Below are positions 67-25,400 of a stretch of DNA of 30,000 nt, in pieces. Positions within the stretch are counted from its first letter, which is position 1, and each line of letters starts with the position of its first letter. The translations under genes and the position numbers were made by a program. The notes under the pieces were generated by a model. It saw only the letters and a program-made list of their open reading frames with translations, had not been told where the DNA came from and searched no databases. The DNA lies in contig JAQGDQ010000563.1 in the NCBI GenBank assembly GCA_030141605.1, positions 1 to 30,000 on the forward strand, written 5' to 3'. The stretch is from Tubiluchus corallicola. Taxonomy: Eukaryota; Priapulida; Priapulimorpha; Priapulimorphida; Tubiluchidae.

Positions 67-147
67 GTTGAGTTTCACAGAGAACTTTCTAAGAAGAATG
101 AACTAGAAGCTGAAGCTTACAAAGACAAACTGAAACTTCAACGCAAA
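67..147 (+). CDS. ACIN1: ACIN1 exon (first in window)
   Basis: The exon is 81 nt, 27 codons, in phase 0 at both ends. The acceptor is a T-rich tract plus TGTCAG, and the donor is AAA followed by GTAAGTG. It encodes [20 protein letters not shown] followed by KLKLQRK, a charged helical segment. It may match the segment just after the RRM in vertebrate Acinus (DELDYHRGLL), but similarity is weak. Frame and splice sites fit the next exon exactly. Confidence 0.75.
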
Positions 148-3100
148 GTAAGTGTGAAAATTTTGTACTCTATTTTGACTATCGATTGACACCTTCATTT
201 CTTATCTATATAACAGATTCAACTTGACAGCATAACAGCACCTCTTGTGTGCAAATGATCCAATGCGCCTTTCACTTCTCGAGATTGCTTGTATGAACCT
301 GGCCCAGGTTGGACGGCACGCTTGGCCAATACTTAGACATCAGGGAATGCAATGCTTTACGTACATGACATGAGTTCATTCAGTAATTTTCTCATGGCAC
401 CTTTCAAATGAAAAAAGGTAAAAAATAAAACTTTCGGACGAAATTTCCTGATCAAATTGCTGCAATAAACTGGGACGATAAGCTTTGAATTGTCGTTGTT
501 CAGATACGCCAAAGTTAAAAGTCAAACTAAACCCTCATTATAATATAAACTTTCACAACTCAAAATCCTACTCTCAGTACGAATGTTCGATTTATTTTAT
601 TATAAACTTGCTGTAAAACTTGTTTCTTTTGTTTTTATCACTTTGTTGTTAGCGAAATTAAATTTGAAGAAGCGCCATTTTTCATTGTGCAACACGAATG
701 ACGTAATGAGTACTCTCACGAGGTCACCAAAGATCAATAAATAGACATCCATAACCAGAGGCGCTTTCTCTACCTTGTACGTCATTCTCGCTCGCTCATG
801 GCAAAGACATGAAATATGGCGATGGACGCTTTCGAGCGTAAACTTATTCAAACTTCTGCCGCTTACCTAATATTCACACAAAAACATTACAATATTAGAT
901 TTTTTTTTGTAAAAACTCATTACGCTTTTGACGAAGATTGACAGTGCGCTAGTTTTCTTCAAGACGAATGACGTCATTGGAAGAAGAAGAATGACGTCAT
1001 TGGAAGAAAATGGGAGCATCCAAGCATGAAGTGATCGCGACTTTAAAGTGATTTTACTAATTACACGAGTCGTTTATTGCAGTTTTATTACTAAATCCTT
1101 CTAACATTTTTTGCGAACGTTGAAGTAACTCTAACCTCCTAGAATAGTTGATCTTTCCTTTAAGATCCCAATGTTCAAGCTTTAGATTGTTATGAACACA
1201 AAACTTTCATAATTTCTTTGTTTTGTTTAAAGTAATGTAAAGTTTAGTTTAGTATGTTTATAAAGAATACGTTCTTATGTACAAAATACGTTGCAAGCTT
1301 TTTAAATCTTATCAATATAAAATTCAGTTGTTGAAATATTTAGGAATTTTTTTTGATACTGGGACAAAAATTTCCGCTTACGTTCTAATGAAGAATCATA
1401 GGACAATCATTTCTGACACTTTTTCAACGAATAATTAAAGTAGAACACGAACAATGGTAGTTTGTTCCGGAACAGTTTTTTCACACTACGTTTTATTTTT
1501 CTTCTTTAAAATTTTAATCTTTAACTTTTCACAGGAGGAAAAGAGACGGAAGAGGTTGGTAGAAGGAAAGGCAGCAGACAAGGAGAAGGATAAAAAACAA
1601 CGAACATCTGAACAGCCGAGTAGAAAAAAAGCAACTTCTCCCGTAGAGATCCGAGAATGGGATCTAGATAAAATTCCTGGACGTTCTCCGCCGGAGTATT
1701 CCAGGTAATTATAACATTTAATCAAAAGCTCTAATCGTTAAGTTAACGTAGCAAGAATGTTAATTACCAAAACTTATCGAAATTTAATTCATCAAAATGT
1801 TTCTTGCTATTTGTGAGCCAAAACCATCCTCAAATCGGCATAGTTAGAACTACGTTATGATGCTTCAAAGTGAAATGTATCATAAATCTAGTCAAAGTAT
1901 TTTTCTTTATAAAAACAAATGCTAAATATATTGGGCTTTTACATTGTAGCAGAAATTATCAGAAAAAATTGTTTAAAAAGTACTAAAAATTTAATTTCAT
2001 AACCTCGTATCCAATTTTCTGGCTAGAAACTAAAACTGCAATTTTGTAGAAACACGACAAAAAACAATGGCTGACTTTAACAGTGATTTTCTCAAGATTA
2101 TGTTTTTCAATGCGTAGCCTGTACCTCAAATTCAATGTGGATTATCTCAGCTTAGAAACAACATAGAGTGATGAACTTGGTATCAAAATGATCCTTGTGA
2201 AATGGAGATTCAGGACACGTGAATAACTAGAAAAGCTTAACTGCTGACCTATGGATGATTTTGCTATGCAAGTTCACATATTTTTTATTTTGAATGGCAT
2301 TTATTTGAGGTGATTAATTTCAGAAACAGACAGAAATCAAGATCTCCTGTGGAGAGGAGAAGGGAAAGACGACATTCACGACAAGAGAGCAGGGAGCGGA
2401 GAATGAGAGAGCGAAGTAGGGAGGGAAGAGATAAGAAAGGTATTGCCTTTTGTATGACTCGCACGCACGCACAGAAACATGTTTTTAAACGTTATTGTTA
2501 CGTGTTATCAAAATATTAACATATTTCAGTTAAGTGTAGAGATATATGTAGGATACAAAAAGATGACACCGCTGTAATTAGTGAATATTCAGTATTTTAG
2601 TAGTTTGATTAATTAGAAATTAGTGAGATTACAGAGTGTAATTCATATTTGTTAATGTAATATCCTGCAATGCTTTATTTTTAAGTTGTTATAGCGTTAT
2701 TTTTCTTTTTTTCTGAAGTATTTCCTGCTTCTTATTTTGTACAAATTATCACCACTAGGACATTGACTTAGTGATTGCTTGTACCAAGCGGTACCTTATG
2801 AATGTCACCTAGTTAAGCTTCCTGGTTTTGTGAAGCGTTGGCTATTAAAGAAATATAATGAAAAAAACCCGCACAGAGCCAGTAGGTTTTGGGCAGTCAC
2901 TTAATAAACTCTCTTGACTAGCTGACACTCAGTAACTCACTGCCAGTCACTCAGTAAACTCTCTTGACTAGCTCACATTCAGTAACTCACTGCCAGTCAC
3001 TTAATAAACTCTCTTGACTAGCTCACATTCAGTAACTCACTGCCAGTCACTCAATAAACTCTCTTGACTAGCTGACACTCAGTAACTCACTGCCAGTCAC

Positions 3101-6100
3101 TCAGTAAACTCTCTTGACTAGCTCACATTCAGTAACTCACTGCCAGTCACTCAATAAACGGTCTGACTAGCTCACATTCAGTAACTCACTGCCAGTCACT
3201 CAATAAACTGTCTGACTAGCTCACATTCAGTAACTCACTGCCAGTCACTCAATAAACTGTCTGACTAGCTCACATTCAGTAACTCACTGCCAGTCACTCA
3301 ATAAACTGTCTGACTAGGTCACATTCAGTAACTCACTGCCAGTCACTCAATAAACTGTCTGACTAGCTCACATTATAGTCTTTCACGATACATTTTTTTA
3401 GAGAAAAAGAAAGAAGAGGCTCCAGCCAAACTGTTAGATGACTTATTTCGAAAGACGAAAACCACTCCGTGTATTTACTGGTTACCACTGACTGAAGAAC
3501 AGGTGAGTGGTCAGCTTCATTGGTCAGCTTGGTTGTTTACTGGTTACTACTGACTGAACAACAGGTGAGTGGGGAGCACGGTCAGCTTCATTGGTCAGCT
3601 TGGTTGTTTACTGGTTATCACTGACTGAAGAACAGGTGAGTGGAAAGCTTGGTCAGTTTCATTGGTCAGCTTGATTGTGTACTGGTTACCACTGACTGAA
3701 GAACAGGTGAGTGGAAAGCACGGTCAGCTTCATTGGTCAGCTTGGTTGTTTACTGGTTATCACTGACTGAAGAACAGGTGAGTGGATAGCATGGTCAGCT
3801 TCATTGGTCAGCTTGGTTGTTTACTGGTTACCACTGACTGAAGAACAGGTGAGTGGATAGCATGGTCAGCTTCATTGGTCAGCTTGGTTGTTTACTGGTT
3901 ACCACTGACTGAAGAACAGGTGAGTGGAAAGCACGGTCAGCTTCATTGGTCAGCTTGGTTGTTTACTGGTTACCACTGACTGAAGAACAGGTGAGTGGAT
4001 AGCATGGTCAGTTTCATTGGTCAGCTTGGTTGTTTACTGGTTATCACTGACTGAAGAACAGGTGAGTGGATAGCATGGTCAGTTTCATTGGTCAGCTTGG
4101 TTGTTTACTGGTTACCACTGACTGAAGAACAGGTGAGTGGATAGCATGGTCAGCTTCATTGGTCAGCTTGGTTGTTTACTGGTTATCACTGACTGAAGAA
4201 CAGGTGAGTGGATAGCATGGTCAGTTTCATTGGTCAGCTTGGTTGTTTACTGGTTACCACTGACTGAAGAACAGGTGAGTGGATAGCATGGTCAGCTTCA
4301 TTGGTCAGTTTGGTTGTTTACTGGTTACCACTGACTGAAGAACAGGTGAGTGGATAGCATGGTCAGCTTCATTGGTCAGTTTGGTTGTTTCCTGTTTACC
4401 ACTGACTGAAGAACAGGTGATTAATATAGAATTAATTTGGTTAAATTTTTTCTCTTAGCTACTTCATCAAGCTTGTATCAGAGCAAATAAAAGGAAAACA
4501 GTGAAAACAAAGTATTTAATTTATTTCTGATTTTTTTCCACTTTTGGTAGTAGTTGGTTTTGCAAAAATGATTTCCGTTCAGTTTCTGTTTGTAACTTCA
4601 GTTTCAGTAACATCCCTGATAAAAACGCTGAATCACGAACATTTCGTATTTGTAAGTGTAAAATATATGAATGTTTAATTGCCACGTTTGTGAGTCAAAT
4701 CCCATTTCCTCTAGTTTGCACAAAAAGAGAAGGAAAGAGCTCAGCGTATGGAGGAGCGAGAACGGCGAAGGCGTCTCATCGCCAAGAAAGAGAAGGAAGA
4801 AGCTGAGGCGGTGCAGAAGGAACGAGAAGTAAGATTTTGCATTCCAAGTAATTAATAATTAATGATAATGATTAAGTAATGGAGAGTAGAATAATGATTA
4901 AGTAATGGAGAGTAGAATAATGATTAAGTAATGGAGAGTAGAATAACGATTAAGTAATGGAGAGTAGAATAACGATTAAGTAATGGAGAGTAGAATAATG
5001 ATTATGTAATGGAGAGTAGAATAATGATTAAGTAATGGAGAGTAGAATAATGATTAAGTAATGGAGAGTAGAATAATGATTAAGTAATGGAGAGTAGAAT
5101 AATGATTAAGTAATGGAGAGTAGAATAATGATTAGGTAATGGAGAGTAGAATAATGATTAGGTAATGGAGAGTAGAATAATGATTAAGTAATGGAGAGTA
5201 GAATAATGATTAAGTAGTGGTAGAATAATGATTAAGTAATGGAGAGTAGAATAATGATTAAGTAATGGAGAGTAGAATAATGATTAAGTAATGGAGAGTA
5301 GAATAATGATTAAGTAATGGAGAGTAGAATAATGGTTAAGTAATGGAGAGTAGAATAATGATTAAGTAATGGAGAGTAGAATAATGATTAAGTAATGGAG
5401 AGTAGAATAATGGTTAAGTAATGGAGAGTAGAATAATGATTAAGTAATGGAGAGTAGAATAATGATTAAGTAATGGAGAGTAGAATAATGATTAAGTAAT
5501 GGAGAGTAGAATAATGATTAAGTAATGGAGAGTAGAATAATGATTAGGTAATGGAGAGTAGAATAATGATTATGTAATGGAGAGTAGAATAATGATTAAG
5601 TAATGGAGAGTAGAATAATGATTAGGTAATGGAGAGTAGAATAATGATTAGGTAATGGAGAGTAGAATAATGATTAAGTAATGGAGAGTAGAATAATGAT
5701 TAAGTAATGGAGAGTAGAATAATGATTAAGTAATGGAGAGTAGAATAATGATTAAGTAATGGAGAGTAGAATAATGATTAAGTAATGGAGAGTAGAATAA
5801 TGATTAAGTAATGGAGAGTAGAATAATGATTAAGTAATGGAGAGTAGAATAATGATTAAGTAATGGAGAGTAGAATAATGGTTAAGTAATGGAGAGTAGA
5901 ATAATGATTAGGTAATGGAGAGTAGAATAATGATTAAGTAATGGAGAGTAGAATAATGATTAAGTAATGGAGAGTAGAATAATGATTAAGTAATGGGGAG
6001 TAGAATAATGATTAAGTAATGGAGAGTAGAATAATGATTAAGTAATGGAGAGTAGAATAATGATTAAGTAATGGAGAGTAGAATAATGGTTAAGTAATGG

Positions 6101-7601
6101 AGAGTAGAATAATGATTAGGTAATGGAGAGTAGAATAATGATTAAGTAATGGAGAGTAGAATAATGATTAAGTAATGGAGAGTAGAATAATGATTAAGTA
6201 ATGGAGAGTAGAATAATGGTTAAGTAATGGAGAGTAGAATAATGATTAAGTAATGGAGAGTAGAATAATGATTAAGTAATGGAGAGTAGAATAATGATTA
6301 AGTAATGGAGAGTAGAATAATGGTTAAGTAATGGAGAGTAGAATAATGATTAAGTAATGGAGAGTAGAATAATGATTAAGTAATGGAGAGTAGAATTTGT
6401 TCAGGAGTTTGTGGAAAGAACCATAGAACAGAGTCAATATTTTACAAAATCTGCAGTAGACATGTTGCTGTAAGACAAAATTAAAGACACAATTGTGTAA
6501 TTTACTTGGAAAATTCAATTTTTTTTGATAAGCATTCTTTGCAATAAGCCTTTTCACAGTTTCATTGTGCACACGCCTAGTTGCTGTAGATCAGTGGTTA
6601 ATTGAAGTGTATCACAGCAACACAACTACAATCATCATGTGACGTGTGGGTAAAGCAAAGCCATCTGCATTCCAGCAAGTCTGTGGCTAAAGCAAAGCAT
6701 CGCTTCAGTAACTTCAGTTGTTTAACTTAATTATGTAGGTGTAGAGTGATTTACTAGTGGGATTTTGCTTGGAAACAAGAAAGAATGAAACTAGGTAAGG
6801 TTCTTGGTGTTAAAACTGTTAGTATTACAACAGCGTGGGCTGTGAGGCCTTGTCAAGTGTACACAAATGCGTTGTCTGGTACATTTAACCTTTGACCTTT
6901 TCACGATCATCATCAATCACTGGAACTGTGAAAAGGTTTATTTTGAATCAAATTTATCTAACCAATGTATCTTTATGTATAAGAATAAGTGCAGTGACTC
7001 ATTAAAGACCCACATGTCATGGGACGGTTGTAGTTAAGACACATTGCTCTGGTACATTTAACCTTTGACCTACAGCAACTGCACGTGCGTACAATGAAAC
7101 TGTGAAAAGATCAAAGGTTAATTGTACCAGATAATGCATTTGTGTACACTTGCAAAGATTAATTGTGCCAGATAACGCATTTGTGTACACTTGACAACAC
7201 CCTGCAGCCCAAGCTGTTGGAAAGGTAACAGTTTAAACAGCTAGCTAAGACCTTACCTAGTTCATTTTTTCTTGTTCCCAAGCAAGATCCTGCTAGCAAA
7301 TCACTCTATGCACAGACTAATGCATAAATAAGTAAAGTCCACCTAAAACAACTGAAGTTTGCTGAACTGATGCAGCAGACGGCTTTGCTTTATCCACACG
7401 TCACGTAATGGTTGTAGTTGAAACGCGCTGCCGTGGTACACTTGACCTTTGACCTACAGCAACTGTGGAAAGGTTTGTTATCCACTTTGTATCCAATGAC
7501 ATCCAAACTAATAAAGTTGAATTTCGTTACTTTAGGAAAAGCACCGTGAGCGAAGCAGAGAAAATCGTAGTAGAAGTAAAAGCCGTCGTCGGCGACATTA
7601 A
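67..7601 (+). CDS. ACIN1: Acinus (ACIN1), 3' six exons; gene starts upstream of window
   Basis: Coding exons are 67-147, 1535-1704, 2324-2439, 3402-3502, 4715-4828 and 7536-7601. They sum to 648 nt, join in one frame, and end at TAA 7599-7601. Acinus is a nuclear RNA-binding protein that forms the ASAP complex with RNPS1 and SAP18 and associates with the exon junction complex; this is family knowledge. The sequence shows the family's C-terminal layout: a charged Lys/Arg/Glu region, an Arg/Ser stretch, the RSB motif ([10 protein letters not shown] then PCIYWLPLT) that contacts RNPS1 and SAP18, a Glu/Arg helix beginning [10 protein letters not shown], and a short RS tail ending [10 protein letters not shown]. 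The RRM expected before this part lies outside the window. No frameshift or premature stop is seen. Introns are 0.6-2.7 kb and three carry large minisatellites. Identity is secure from the RSB motif; the first exon is less certain. Confidence 0.93.
148..540. other. ACIN1 intron, unannotated part
   Basis: I see no gene or clear repeat here. The sequence is moderately AT-rich. Confidence 0.5.
600..1165 (+). repeat. Dispersed repeat family D (CRE-bearing), copy 1
   Basis: The part at about 905-1165 has an inverted counterpart at 16125-16360. Shared landmarks are ACAGTGCGCTAGTTTTCTTC, AAGACGAATGACGTCATTGG, the interval to TTATTGCAGTTTTATTACTA, and CTAACCTCCTAGAA. It contains two copies of ATGACGTCATTGGAAGAA in tandem. 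It is likely a non-autonomous transposon remnant in the ACIN1 intron; its left boundary is not resolved. Confidence 0.7.
1535..1704 (+). CDS. ACIN1: ACIN1 exon, charged linker
   Basis: The exon is 170 nt, from phase 0 to phase 2. The acceptor is TTAACTTTTCACAG and the donor CCAG followed by GTAATT. It encodes a Lys/Arg/Glu-rich segment starting [20 protein letters not shown] and containing [16 protein letters not shown]. The latter resembles the REWDRDK segment between the RRM and RSB motif of vertebrate Acinus. Confidence 0.85.
1821..2266 (+). repeat. Family C dispersed repeat, copy in ACIN1 intron
   Basis: It is similar along its length to 12878-13400. Shared blocks include TTCTGGCTAGAAACTA, CGACAAAAAACAATGGCT, TTTTCTCAAGATTATGTTTT and TGATGAACTTGGTATCAAAA. 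Its ends resemble each other in inverted orientation (GTCCATAAGTTGGC-like), suggesting a TIR element. No autonomous coding part is seen. Confidence 0.7.
2324..2439 (+). CDS. ACIN1: ACIN1 exon, Arg/Ser/Glu-rich
   Basis: The exon is 116 nt. The acceptor is TTAATTTCAG and the donor GATAAGAAAG followed by GTATTG. The first base completes the Arg codon split with the preceding exon, and the last G is carried into the next. The product is [20 protein letters not shown] followed by further RE/RS repeats, consistent with the RS-like segment before the RSB motif. Confidence 0.87.
2894..3375. repeat. Minisatellite, 49/50-bp unit, about 9-10 copies
   Basis: The unit contains CACTCAATAAACT, TTGACTAGCTCACATTCAGT and AACTCACTGCCAGT. 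Early units have CTCTCTTGAC and later ones a one-base-shorter CTGTCTGAC form, so two unit types occupy separate halves. It ends about 26 bp before the acceptor of the RSB exon. Confidence 0.95.
3402..3502 (+). CDS. ACIN1: ACIN1 exon with the RSB motif
   Basis: The exon is 101 nt. The acceptor is CATTTTTTTAG and the donor GAACAG followed by GTGAGT. It encodes [20 protein letters not shown] then [14 protein letters not shown]. This is nearly identical to the vertebrate Acinus RSB motif that binds RNPS1 and SAP18 in the ASAP complex. The last ~28 nt of the exon plus the donor are also the start of the 71-bp tandem repeat that follows. Reading through the donor meets TGA at 3551-3553. Confidence 0.96.
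3474..4427 (+). repeat. Junction-spanning minisatellite, 71-bp unit, 14 donor copies
   Basis: The unit joins ~28 nt of exon end (TTACTGGTTACCACTGACTG then AAGAACAG), the donor GTGAGTGG, and intron sequence (CATGGTCAGCTTCATTGGTC). The first copy is the real end of the ACIN1 exon. The last copy ends in a changed donor, GTGATT. Copies differ by few substitutions (TTATCACTG for TTACCACTG, GGAAAGCACG for GGATAGCATG). Confidence 0.96.
4715..4828 (+). CDS. ACIN1: ACIN1 exon, Glu/Arg helix after RSB motif
   Basis: The exon is 114 nt, 38 codons, in phase 0 at both ends. The acceptor is CATTTCCTCTAG and the donor GAGAA followed by GTAAGA. It encodes [20 protein letters not shown] and then [18 protein letters not shown], matching the IVQKEAERAERAKER region of vertebrate Acinus. 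A 26-bp array starts about 30 bases beyond the donor. Confidence 0.93.
4859..6395. repeat. Minisatellite, 26-bp unit, about 59 copies
   Basis: The unit is AAGTAATGGAGAGTAGAATA plus ATGATT. It is very homogeneous. Recurrent variants are GGTTAAG, GATTAGG and GATTATG, and one unit near 5215 is shortened. It begins about 30 bp past the donor of the ACIN1 exon 4715-4828. It is the longest array in the window. Confidence 0.97.
6547..6938 (+). mobile_element. Family A MITE, complete copy with TA flanks
   Basis: The ends are AGCCTTTTCACAGTT and AACTGTGAAAAGGTT, near-perfect terminal inverted repeats of about 15 bp flanked by TA on both sides (6545-6546, 6939-6940). The length is 392 bp with no coding capacity. 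Size, ends and TA target suggest a Tc1/mariner-like MITE. Confidence 0.75.
6970..7478 (-). mobile_element. Family A MITE, rearranged inverted copies
   Basis: There are partial minus-oriented copies: a fragment near 7015-7115, a short internally repeated part (AATGCATTTGTGTACACTTG near 7134 and 7175), then most of an element to about 7475 ending CAACTGTGGAAAGG. With 6547-6938 they form a large inverted repeat just before the last ACIN1 exon. Confidence 0.7.
7536..7601 (+). CDS. ACIN1: ACIN1 terminal coding exon, RS tail
   Basis: The exon has 21 codons plus TAA. The acceptor is TTCGTTACTTTAG. The product begins [14 protein letters not shown] and ends KSRRRRH, a short Arg/Ser tail like the end of other Acinus proteins. 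It is in phase 0 with the exon ending at 4828. The other open frame here, which runs on to 7674, gives no RS pattern and does not join the upstream exon. Confidence 0.88.
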   Translation, partial: EKHRERSRENRSRSKSRRRRH

Positions 7602-22400: not shown

Positions 22401-25400
22401 ACCTTCTATAACTTGTGCTGATCGAATTTGAAATTGAATTTATGACACCACTGCATTCTGTATGACTCACCAGCTTTTTTACCTTTCATTTCCTCTATTC
22501 GGTTTATATGAGTTAGATATATCAGACCAAAGTTAGATAACTACTATTGTAAAATTTGTTTTTTTAAAACTCATAATAGAAACTGGAGCCGAAAGCAGAG
22601 CAATGAGTCTTTAATATCATTAAGTAATGCCTGTGCGAAATGACGTAATCTCTGAAAACCAGAAAAAGGCAAAGTGTTTTGCTACGGTAAGACATGTGCT
22701 GCCATCTATGAAAACCAGAAATAGGCAAAGTGTTTTGCTACGGTAAGACATATGCTGCCATCTATGAAGTACACATTTCGACAAGAAAAGTGTCCTTTCA
22801 ATTAATTAGTATTGTGTACATAAGGAAAGCAAGTGCCTAGTTTGCCTAGAGATAGAGCCGGCATTGAGTTCTGGTGTTAACTTGAAGAACTAACCCTGTT
22901 CCATTACTCGTATTTGTCTTACTTATTGTACTATGAGTAAGTGATGATACTAATAAAAGAAAAAAGTCTTTATATGCAAAGTACTGTCCACTTTTCTGAA
23001 GTTAAAATAACGTTAAAAAGCCACTTACTAAAGTTTGTACAGCTAATATGGTGAGTATCACAATTAATGCAGCCTTGATAGCAAGTTGATTTAATGCTAT
23101 GTATTTCATTGCATCAACAAATATACATTTCCTGAAAAGAAAACAAACAGCTATTTAAACTTTTTACTGATAGTAGAAAATCTCGCAATAACAGTTGAAA
23201 ATCGAATCATTTATTGCGGCTAAAATCACTTCTAATTCAGTGACTTGACTACTAGAATTCTTGCTTTAAGGAAAAAAAGTTTTTTTTATCATATGCTGAC
23301 CTACTTTCAAAGTATACACAGGAAAGTATACATTTTAGCATTTACAGAAACTCCAGTGTTTCTGATAATTAAACATTAACTTGAAAACTTAATTTAAACT
23401 TAATTTAACTAAACTGATGTCAACATAGCACAATCTATTATCTTTCTTCCTACCATTTCTACTAACACATCCTTCTACCCTTCCTGTGTGATCTAACCTT
23501 TCTCCTAGTTCTTTTTTGTTCACTCATCCATTTTTTTTATCGGGTTCACATGACAGTGGGCTTATACAAGCCTTTGCTTCTCTAGCCCACTGCAGTACAA
23601 TTATTCTTTTATGATAACGATAGTGTATGAAACATAACAATTTGATACAGTATGATGTAATAATTTTGATGTCAGTGTGAGCTTAATGTTATTATATTGT
23701 ACTGAATGTGATAATAATTATAAATAAAAAGAAAATAATTAGCAACTGGCGAAATGATGCGATGAGGAATGAAAAAAAGTTTTACGGAACAGAAACATTC
23801 CATCAGCATTTCGTTGCAACAGCGAAAATTGAAATTCAGTGTTGTACGTACAACGTTGACCGCGATACACTAAGATAATTTGTGTTTAAAAATTTGAATT
23901 TTATGAGGCGTATCAAGGTGGAGGTACAGGGAGCAACCGCACAGGGGCACAAGGGTGAGAGGCCGCAAAATTCTTGTAGAGTTCAATGACTGTTAATTAT
24001 TAATTATAGATCCTACATTAACGAAACAATTATCAAAAATTTTCAAACTTCAGCAAAATTGCCTAGTCAGAGATCATTGTAGCTTAATTACTACATACAT
24101 CTTACAAAAAAGACTAAAGTTGTTACTTAATGGTATGTATTGGGTGTCGTGTGGCTTAGCAGATTGATAATTTTGGGAGAAACAGTGACGTTTCTCTAAA
24201 TGCAGATTGTATTATTGTGAAAACCTGCAGTGTTCTGTATCTTTCATAATCTTTGCATGTTTTAATGCTGGAGCTGAATGTTTAATGACTGTCGTGTTAT
24301 GAGCAACTAATGCATAGAAAAGAGTTACTCTGCTGCAGTACCACAAGTCAAACTCAGGGTCATTCTTAGAGAAAATTCATTTATCTTTATCCCATCACGC
24401 CGAGAAAGGAAAGTAGGGCTCAGAGACGCATAAGACGTGCAAAATTTGTGGCTTCACCCAGGAAACAAATGATCAAAACATTAAAGGGGTAGGGCGCTAG
24501 AAGTCTTTTTGCCCCCAGGAACCACAACTACTCGCTACACCAATGGTTTACCACTGCGGCAACACAAAAGTTTGCAAATGTTTCAATGCTTCTGTGCAAT
24601 GTGTTTCCGAGATACAACGTTAGTGTCCATGTAACTGGAATGGCAGATATATGCAGGAAACCAGCGATGCGAATGCAAAATTATGTTTCTGCAGTAATAA
24701 TTCTTTCAGATAAGTAGCAGTGTCCTAGCTAATAGGACAGCGGGGGGGGGGGGGGGGGGGAGTAACCTAACCTCCCCCTGAACACATTTTTCAAAATTGG
24801 TGCCTTTCCGACAGTTTTTTAACGTTTCAGTTAATTTGTGTGACAACAGTCAAATCTTTTCTTTTATTTTGTAATCGCACGGCCTTGGAAGAATTTTCTG
24901 GAATCAATTTGACCAACCTGCTTCCCCTGCTTTTAAAACGAGCGTGCATTTACATGACTCATTTGTCAAGGTTGAGTGACTGGACCAAGAGTGACGGAAC
25001 CCTAAATCTAATTATTATAACATATTCTTGTCACATGCTGATACTGTATGTTGCTGCATAGACAAACATGTAATTGCTTCACGTGTCACGGTGCCTTTTT
25101 ATGTGCTTGCTCCCCTTTATTTTACAACCTGGATACGCCCCTAATAAGTAGTTCTTAAAATACAAATTCGGTTTCAATATTTTATGCCTTAGATTATTTT
25201 GAGCTACAGTTTAAAATTATGTACTGTTTTCCTTTAATAGCAAACAAATACAAGTTCGGTTTCAATATTTTATGCCTTAGATTATTTTGAGCTATAGTTT
25301 AAAATTATGTACTGTTTTCCTTTAATAGCAAACAAATACAAGTTCGGTTTCAATATTTTATGCCTTAGATTATTTTGAGCTATAGTTTAAAATTACGTAC

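Follow-up and report, generated by a model that had tools for sequence, protein, structure and literature searches.

The last coding bases of one ACIN1 exon, the exon encoding the RSB motif, have been amplified together with the adjoining 5′ splice site into a tandem array of 14 copies. We think it likely that this array is a tolerated junction minisatellite of the type called mirages, in which the first splice donor (donor 1) is the one used and transcripts occasionally spliced at the downstream decoys are lost by decay. As in mirages, the repeat unit spans an exon-intron boundary, each copy comprising 29–32 exonic bases and a donor, so that the copies carry splice signals. The window discussed here is the whole stretch of DNA that was analysed, 30,000 nt long, and its relevant features are collected in Table 1.

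The earlier note on this DNA had named the gene as ACIN1, and the RSB motif and six exons matching a close relative, P0121, bear this out. The Pfam model RSB_motif (PF16294) scores 88.4 bits in the exon frame and 84 bits in the spliced product against a cut-off of 27.1; frames +1 and +3 give matches below the cut-off (17.7 and 17.5 bits) that fall within the repeat copies. The exon aligns moreover with peptide chain 4a8x_B, deposited under the name HOOK-LIKE, ISOFORM A, which we take to be Drosophila Acinus in the ASAP complex. An intron splits the E codon at the start of this exon, and copy 1 of the repeat takes up the exon's last ∼29–32 bases. When trimmed, the six exons join into 648 nt counted from position 67 (651 nt from 64) with a single, terminal stop. 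The window begins downstream of the ACIN1 RRM; SAP, RRM and RSB are all present in P0121. Other genes were sought by six-frame Pfam annotation of the 30-kb window (stop codons written as X, E ≤ 0.01), which gave RSB_motif only, and the window has no Rfam match at gathering scores and no tRNA.

Table 1. ACIN1 exons, splice sites and repeat arrays in the window, in order of position; a slash marks the exon-intron boundary
Feature	Coordinates	Strand	Donor	Basis or description
First ACIN1 exon in window	67..147	+	AAA/GTAAGT at 148	P0121 TBLASTN, 89% identity over 28 amino acids (from 64); frame and acceptor; start placed from AG at 65-66
ACIN1 exon ending SPPEYS	1535..1704	+	CAG/GTAATT at 1705	83% identity to P0121 over 59 columns (1532-1705); frame joins
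ACIN1 RS-rich exon	2324..2439	+	AAG/GTATTG at 2440	77% identity to P0121 over 44 columns; frame joins
49/50-bp minisatellite, upstream intron	2894..3374	+		Ends 27 nt before exon 3402
ACIN1 RSB-motif exon	3402..3502	+	Donor 1	PF16294; 34/34 residues identical to P0121; 4a8x_B match
Junction minisatellite	3471..4423	+		14 copies of exon end plus donor; ∼33-42 intron bases between
True 5′ splice site (donor 1)	3503..3508	+	CAG/GTGAGT	Site map, consensus score, P0121 match
In-frame TGA met via any donor except donor 1	3551..3553	+		Reading frame
Twelve decoy donors, copies 2-13	3565..4351	+	CAG/GTGAGT	Site map, consensus score
Copy 14 donor, weakened	4417..4422	+	GTGATT	7.5/9
Next ACIN1 exon	4715..4828	+	GAA/GTAAGA at 4829	97% identity to P0121 over 38 amino acids
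26-bp minisatellite, 59 copies, downstream intron	4865..6396	+		Starts 36 nt after 4829
Last coding exon, stop-ended	7536..7601	+		73% identity to P0121 over 22 columns

P0121 is a 1224-residue ORF on a 5189-nt contig, taken from a search for full-length relatives (among the best 120 of 431 matches). Its residues 1002–1224 match the window at 64-147, 1532-1705, up to 2438, 3401-3502, 4715-4828 and 7536-7598. Since the homologous 3′ part occupies 7.5 kb with five introns, we infer that P0121 represents spliced RNA or cDNA. It joins LTEEQ directly to FAQKEK, the product expected from donor 1 and the acceptor at 4715, so that the acceptor at 4714/4715 proposed earlier is confirmed; this is the productive junction in the close relative, which may itself lack the array. 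A protein search scoring 7958 candidates placed P0121 first and Priapulus caudatus next (292 bits, versus 194 for the third) among the best 120 of 664 matches. The DNA probably belongs to a priapulid or related scalidophoran, a lancelet being an unlikely source. Valine, as would be read from GTN, follows the Q position in 111 of the 120 best listed of 152 homologues, with exact QV in 102 of these 120. These homologues are probably for the most part genomic ORFs that run from exon into intron, in which case the intron position would be old in animals.

The first intron bases of the 14 donors lie at 3503, 3565, 3636, 3707, 3778, 3849 and 3920 (donors 1–7) and at 3991, 4062, 4133, 4204, 4275, 4346 and 4417 (donors 8–14). 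Tandem Repeats Finder (TRF) describes the array as period 71, 12.9 copies, 95% matches and score 1651. Much of what the earlier note had read from the letters stands: there are indeed 14 copies of the exon end and donor, mapped as CAG/GTGA(G or T)T sites, 13 of them CAG/GTGAGT and the last, copy 14, weakened to CAG/GTGATT. The 71-bp unit holds for twelve spacings, but the first, from copy 1 to copy 2, is 62; and position 3402, from which the repeat had been counted, is the start of the exon, the repeat itself starting near 3471. Copy 1 had been taken as the last ∼28 coding bases plus the real donor, and its exonic bases in fact equal the consensus of copies 2–13 in the last 29 of 29; over 32 exonic bases the two disagree only at -30 and -32.

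Donor strength was scored as the count of matches to CAGGTAAGT, with a maximum of 9 and half a point for G at +3. On both strands of the 30 kb the only sites scoring at least 8.5 are the 13 intact array sites, which excludes chance. All 13 are identical from -3 to +6, decoys 2–13 thus scoring 8.5 like donor 1, and consensus strength alone therefore cannot single out donor 1. The other four ACIN1 donors in the window score 7, 8, 5 and 6, below the decoys. For the copy 14 donor the duplex with the U1 end is computed at -8.2 versus -13.3 kcal/mol for intact sites.

As claimed before, only donor 1 preserves the protein, since donors 2–14 all read into the same TGA, at 3551-3553, after 16 further residues. 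The exon measures 101 nt with donor 1 and 163 to 1015 nt with donors 2 to 14, and the distance from the stop to the last junction runs from 125 nt (donor 2) up to 977 nt (donor 14). A premature stop that far ahead of the last junction usually leads to nonsense-mediated decay; with at least 125 nt for every decoy, decay is expected by this rule. Donors 2–14 each combine a premature stop with downstream junctions, as alternative sites in unproductive-splicing autoregulation do. The decoy product retains an RSB match of 73.2 bits versus 84 for the spliced product, and if it escaped decay it would be a truncated, possibly active protein and not simply a null.

The copies are unequally diverged. 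Copies 2 and 3 are 3–9 bases away from the other full copies and copy 4 is 1–6 away; copies 5–13 differ among themselves by 0–4, and copy 14 is truncated. Extra constraint on the donors was not detected (0 of 9 donor columns variable versus 11 of 71 overall, P = 0.20), nor did exon-like and intron-like columns differ (4 of 32 versus 7 of 39 variable, Fisher P = 0.74). By analogy, this pattern of divergence resembles that of concerted tandem repeats and of the mirages in the globin gene BflGb6. Decoy copies 3, 5, 9 and 11 (3535-4203) encode YWLSLTEEQ, a Pro-to-Ser change relative to YWLPLTEEQ, and copy 2 encodes YWLLLTEQQ. Such YWLSL and YWLLL copies form a reservoir from which conversion could reach the coding exon and harm its motif. 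When other ACIN1 proteins were searched for a repeated YWLPL, one of 344 had a second loose match, in an unrelated part.

The surroundings are rich in repeats. TRF rows, merged by hand, give 23 tandem arrays covering 9,646 of 30,000 bases (32%), and 10 of the arrays have at least five copies. In a random-seed null, which used exon starts 1532, 2321 and 64 instead of 1535, 2324 and 67, at least one of the gene's three many-copy arrays crosses a junction in 14% of cases and a donor in 7%. A junction-crossing array is therefore unusual yet expected occasionally in a region so rich in minisatellites. That both neighbouring arrays hug exon edges has a chance of about 0.007, in a post hoc calculation made by hand with the focal array excluded. 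Copies of the unit dispersed elsewhere in the window were not found, the matches being of only 9–10 bases with E of 1.4 or more. A templated inverted origin of the intronic filler was also considered and set aside: the local score was reached by 46 of 2000 shuffles, a weak and post hoc result.

Three further places in the window have splice-like features of their own. In the 26-bp array at 4865-6396, TAAGTAATG occurs 49 times and TAGGTAATG 7 times, and the TAGGTAATG sites score 6/9, the same as the real donor of that intron, GAA/GTAAGA at 4829. Between the junction array and the next exon, the 193 nt of 4459-4651 could be a cryptic or poison exon: a good acceptor-like site, ttttttctcttag, precedes 4459, a stop lies in frame, and TTT/GTAAGT provides a donor at 4652. 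The repeat at 22648-22768 (56-bp unit, 2.2 copies) includes the donor-like CTACGGTAAGAC; it also holds CGGTAAGA and was considered as a second exon-end duplication, a reading we set aside; no Pfam match covers the repeat.

Several known systems invite comparison. Mirages have been described in amphioxus Adh3, in the globin genes BflGb6 and BflGb9 and in TnC, with similar splice-site repeats in PGBD5 (PMC3087553, PMC3902484). They are junction-spanning repeats, many but not all with splice signals, and are reported to leave regular splicing undisturbed and to vary in copy number (PMC3087553, PMC3902484). The BflGb6 mirages are said to evolve in concert, with units at cluster boundaries escaping homogenization, and the same source cautions that splice signals in the repeats could serve as cryptic sites (PMC3087553). 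The ACIN1 array shares with these the form of a boundary-spanning tandem repeat that carries splice signals. It differs from them in lying in a gene whose closest named relative (among the best 120 of 664 matches) is a priapulid, not a lancelet, and in having 14 copies, 13 of them with the same near-perfect donor.

In humans, the minisatellite of the gene 6-16 reportedly provides multiple splice donor sites (Turri et al. 1995). This gene, IFI6, and the ACIN1 array have in common that a minisatellite supplies several donors to one transcript. In IFI6 two downstream repeat units reportedly act as donors, and three mRNAs and protein isoforms result (PMC4526556), whereas the downstream donors of ACIN1 all lead to a stop. 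In genes of human segmental duplications, exon-intron boundaries are reported to bear tandem repeats that vary and are able to provide splice sites (PMC2812944); these are tied to new introns, whereas the ACIN1 intron is probably old. In the model of Rogers, as summarized in PMC3087553, introns are gained when AG/GT segments duplicate in tandem. The likeness is that duplicated AG/GT junctions are raw material for splice sites; the difference is that ACIN1 has no new intron, its position being common to the listed animal homologues.

The tolerated-mirage reading would proceed as follows. A tandem duplication across the exon-intron junction would have grown, through slippage or unequal exchange, within a minisatellite-rich region. 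If exon definition is assumed, the spliceosome would recognize exon 3402-3502, of 101 nt, through that exon's acceptor and pick donor 1, and the array would be removed within an ordinary intron of 1.2 kb. Occasional use of a decoy would yield transcripts with a premature stop, to be removed by nonsense-mediated decay. The array would then be a nearly neutral burden, likely to vary in copy number and to act as a source of conversion for the coding exon. Two alternatives had been offered at the outset, that position or exon definition resolves the choice among donors, or that decay-prone decoy isoforms tune ACIN1 output. The former is the better supported, by the P0121 junction and by what is reported of published mirages (PMC3087553, PMC3902484). 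Given IFI6 and the caution in the mirage paper, decoy use need not be negligible, and by analogy some leak is plausible. The reading leaves unexplained why only the last donor is weakened and why the neighbouring arrays come within 27 and 36 nt of exon edges.

The alternative of tuning deserves weighing in its stronger form, a regulated sink in which decoys compete with donor 1 and array length, together with ASAP/EJC activity, sets ACIN1 output by feedback. Such a sink would fit the twelve decoys as strong as donor 1, each of which leads to the TGA and leaves a junction 125 nt or more beyond it, and unproductive splicing is reported to self-regulate many RNA-binding proteins (PMC6547761). The donor columns, however, bear no detectable extra constraint (P = 0.20), and the effect of ACIN1 knock-down on recursive exons is given as significant but very weak (PMC6224609). 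With a window so rich in minisatellites as well, the earlier suggestion of tuning gained no positive support, and we regard the sink as unlikely. A related proposal makes the array a working rheostat, in which AG/GTGAGT sites are used or by-passed according to ASAP/EJC activity, ACIN1 level being set by competition and copy number; we consider this very unlikely. Its setting would be 13 identical recursive-type sites in a gene encoding a splicing factor that is peripheral to the EJC and has partners that hold back re-splicing, and, were it true, a truncated RSB-bearing isoform would perhaps be set likewise. RNPS1 and PNN have been linked to repression of recursive sites (PMC6224609), and in Drosophila EJC loss can activate weak sites (PMC8184009). 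At EJC-repressed recursive sites an AG/GT-type site is rebuilt after splicing, as the ACIN1 array would do, but the array CAGs differ from them in their poor pyrimidine context.

That context also weighs on ratchet (recursive) splicing, in which the array would be removed as 13 head-to-tail GT...CAG mini-introns, 62 nt once and then 71. Splicing from donor 1 to the CAG of any copy rebuilds CAG/GTGAGT and preserves the protein, and 13 of 14 copies, copy 2 being different, end in a stretch of the ACTGACTGAAGAACAG type with a branch-point-like CTGAC. The pyrimidine fraction is 0.41 in array copies (0.47 in copy 2), values reached by 72% and 60%, respectively, of the 881 YAG sites in the window, whereas the six true acceptors have 0.76, 0.71, 0.53, 0.71, 0.76 and 0.65. 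The weakest of these, at 2324 (0.53), is only slightly better than the array CAGs, and EJC-suppressed cryptic sites in Drosophila are reported to be often of weak motif (PMC8184009), such that weak acceptors are no bar. A recursive site should nevertheless combine a good acceptor with a good donor; here the donor is strong and the acceptor context poor, and we consider ratchet splicing highly improbable.

Selection of donor 1 by RNA structure that hides the decoy donors seems to us extremely unlikely. Copies 2–14 do have an upstream CTTCA...GTCAG able to pair with CTGACTGAAG, which donor 1 has not upstream of it, but in three window settings donor 1 is predicted to be no more accessible than decoys 2–13, donor 14 is predicted to be the most accessible in each -3..+6 row, and folding energies are not distinct from those of shuffles (z -0.04 and -1.17). 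An assembly artefact, in which the assembler inflated the copy number or else collapsed or duplicated copies, is very unlikely. The identical copy pairs 6/10, 9/11 and 12/13 would fit it; against it stand unit variants that change along the array, the divergence of copies 2 and 3, a first spacing of 62 and a truncated last copy. Long reads can span an array of roughly 1 kb, so that this one lies within their reach.

The tolerated-mirage reading would make the ACIN1 array, as far as its sequence tells, probably a mirage outside lancelets, of a kind already known; junction-spanning minisatellites are then probably not confined to the lancelet and human examples considered here. The end of a coding exon here evolves in concert with non-coding copies, and four of these show the Pro-to-Ser change in YWLPL. 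The array is moreover a natural competition experiment, with 13 identical donors in one transcript and the full protein from one only, in which junction counts would reveal what part position, exon length and exon definition play in the choice when donors are equal.
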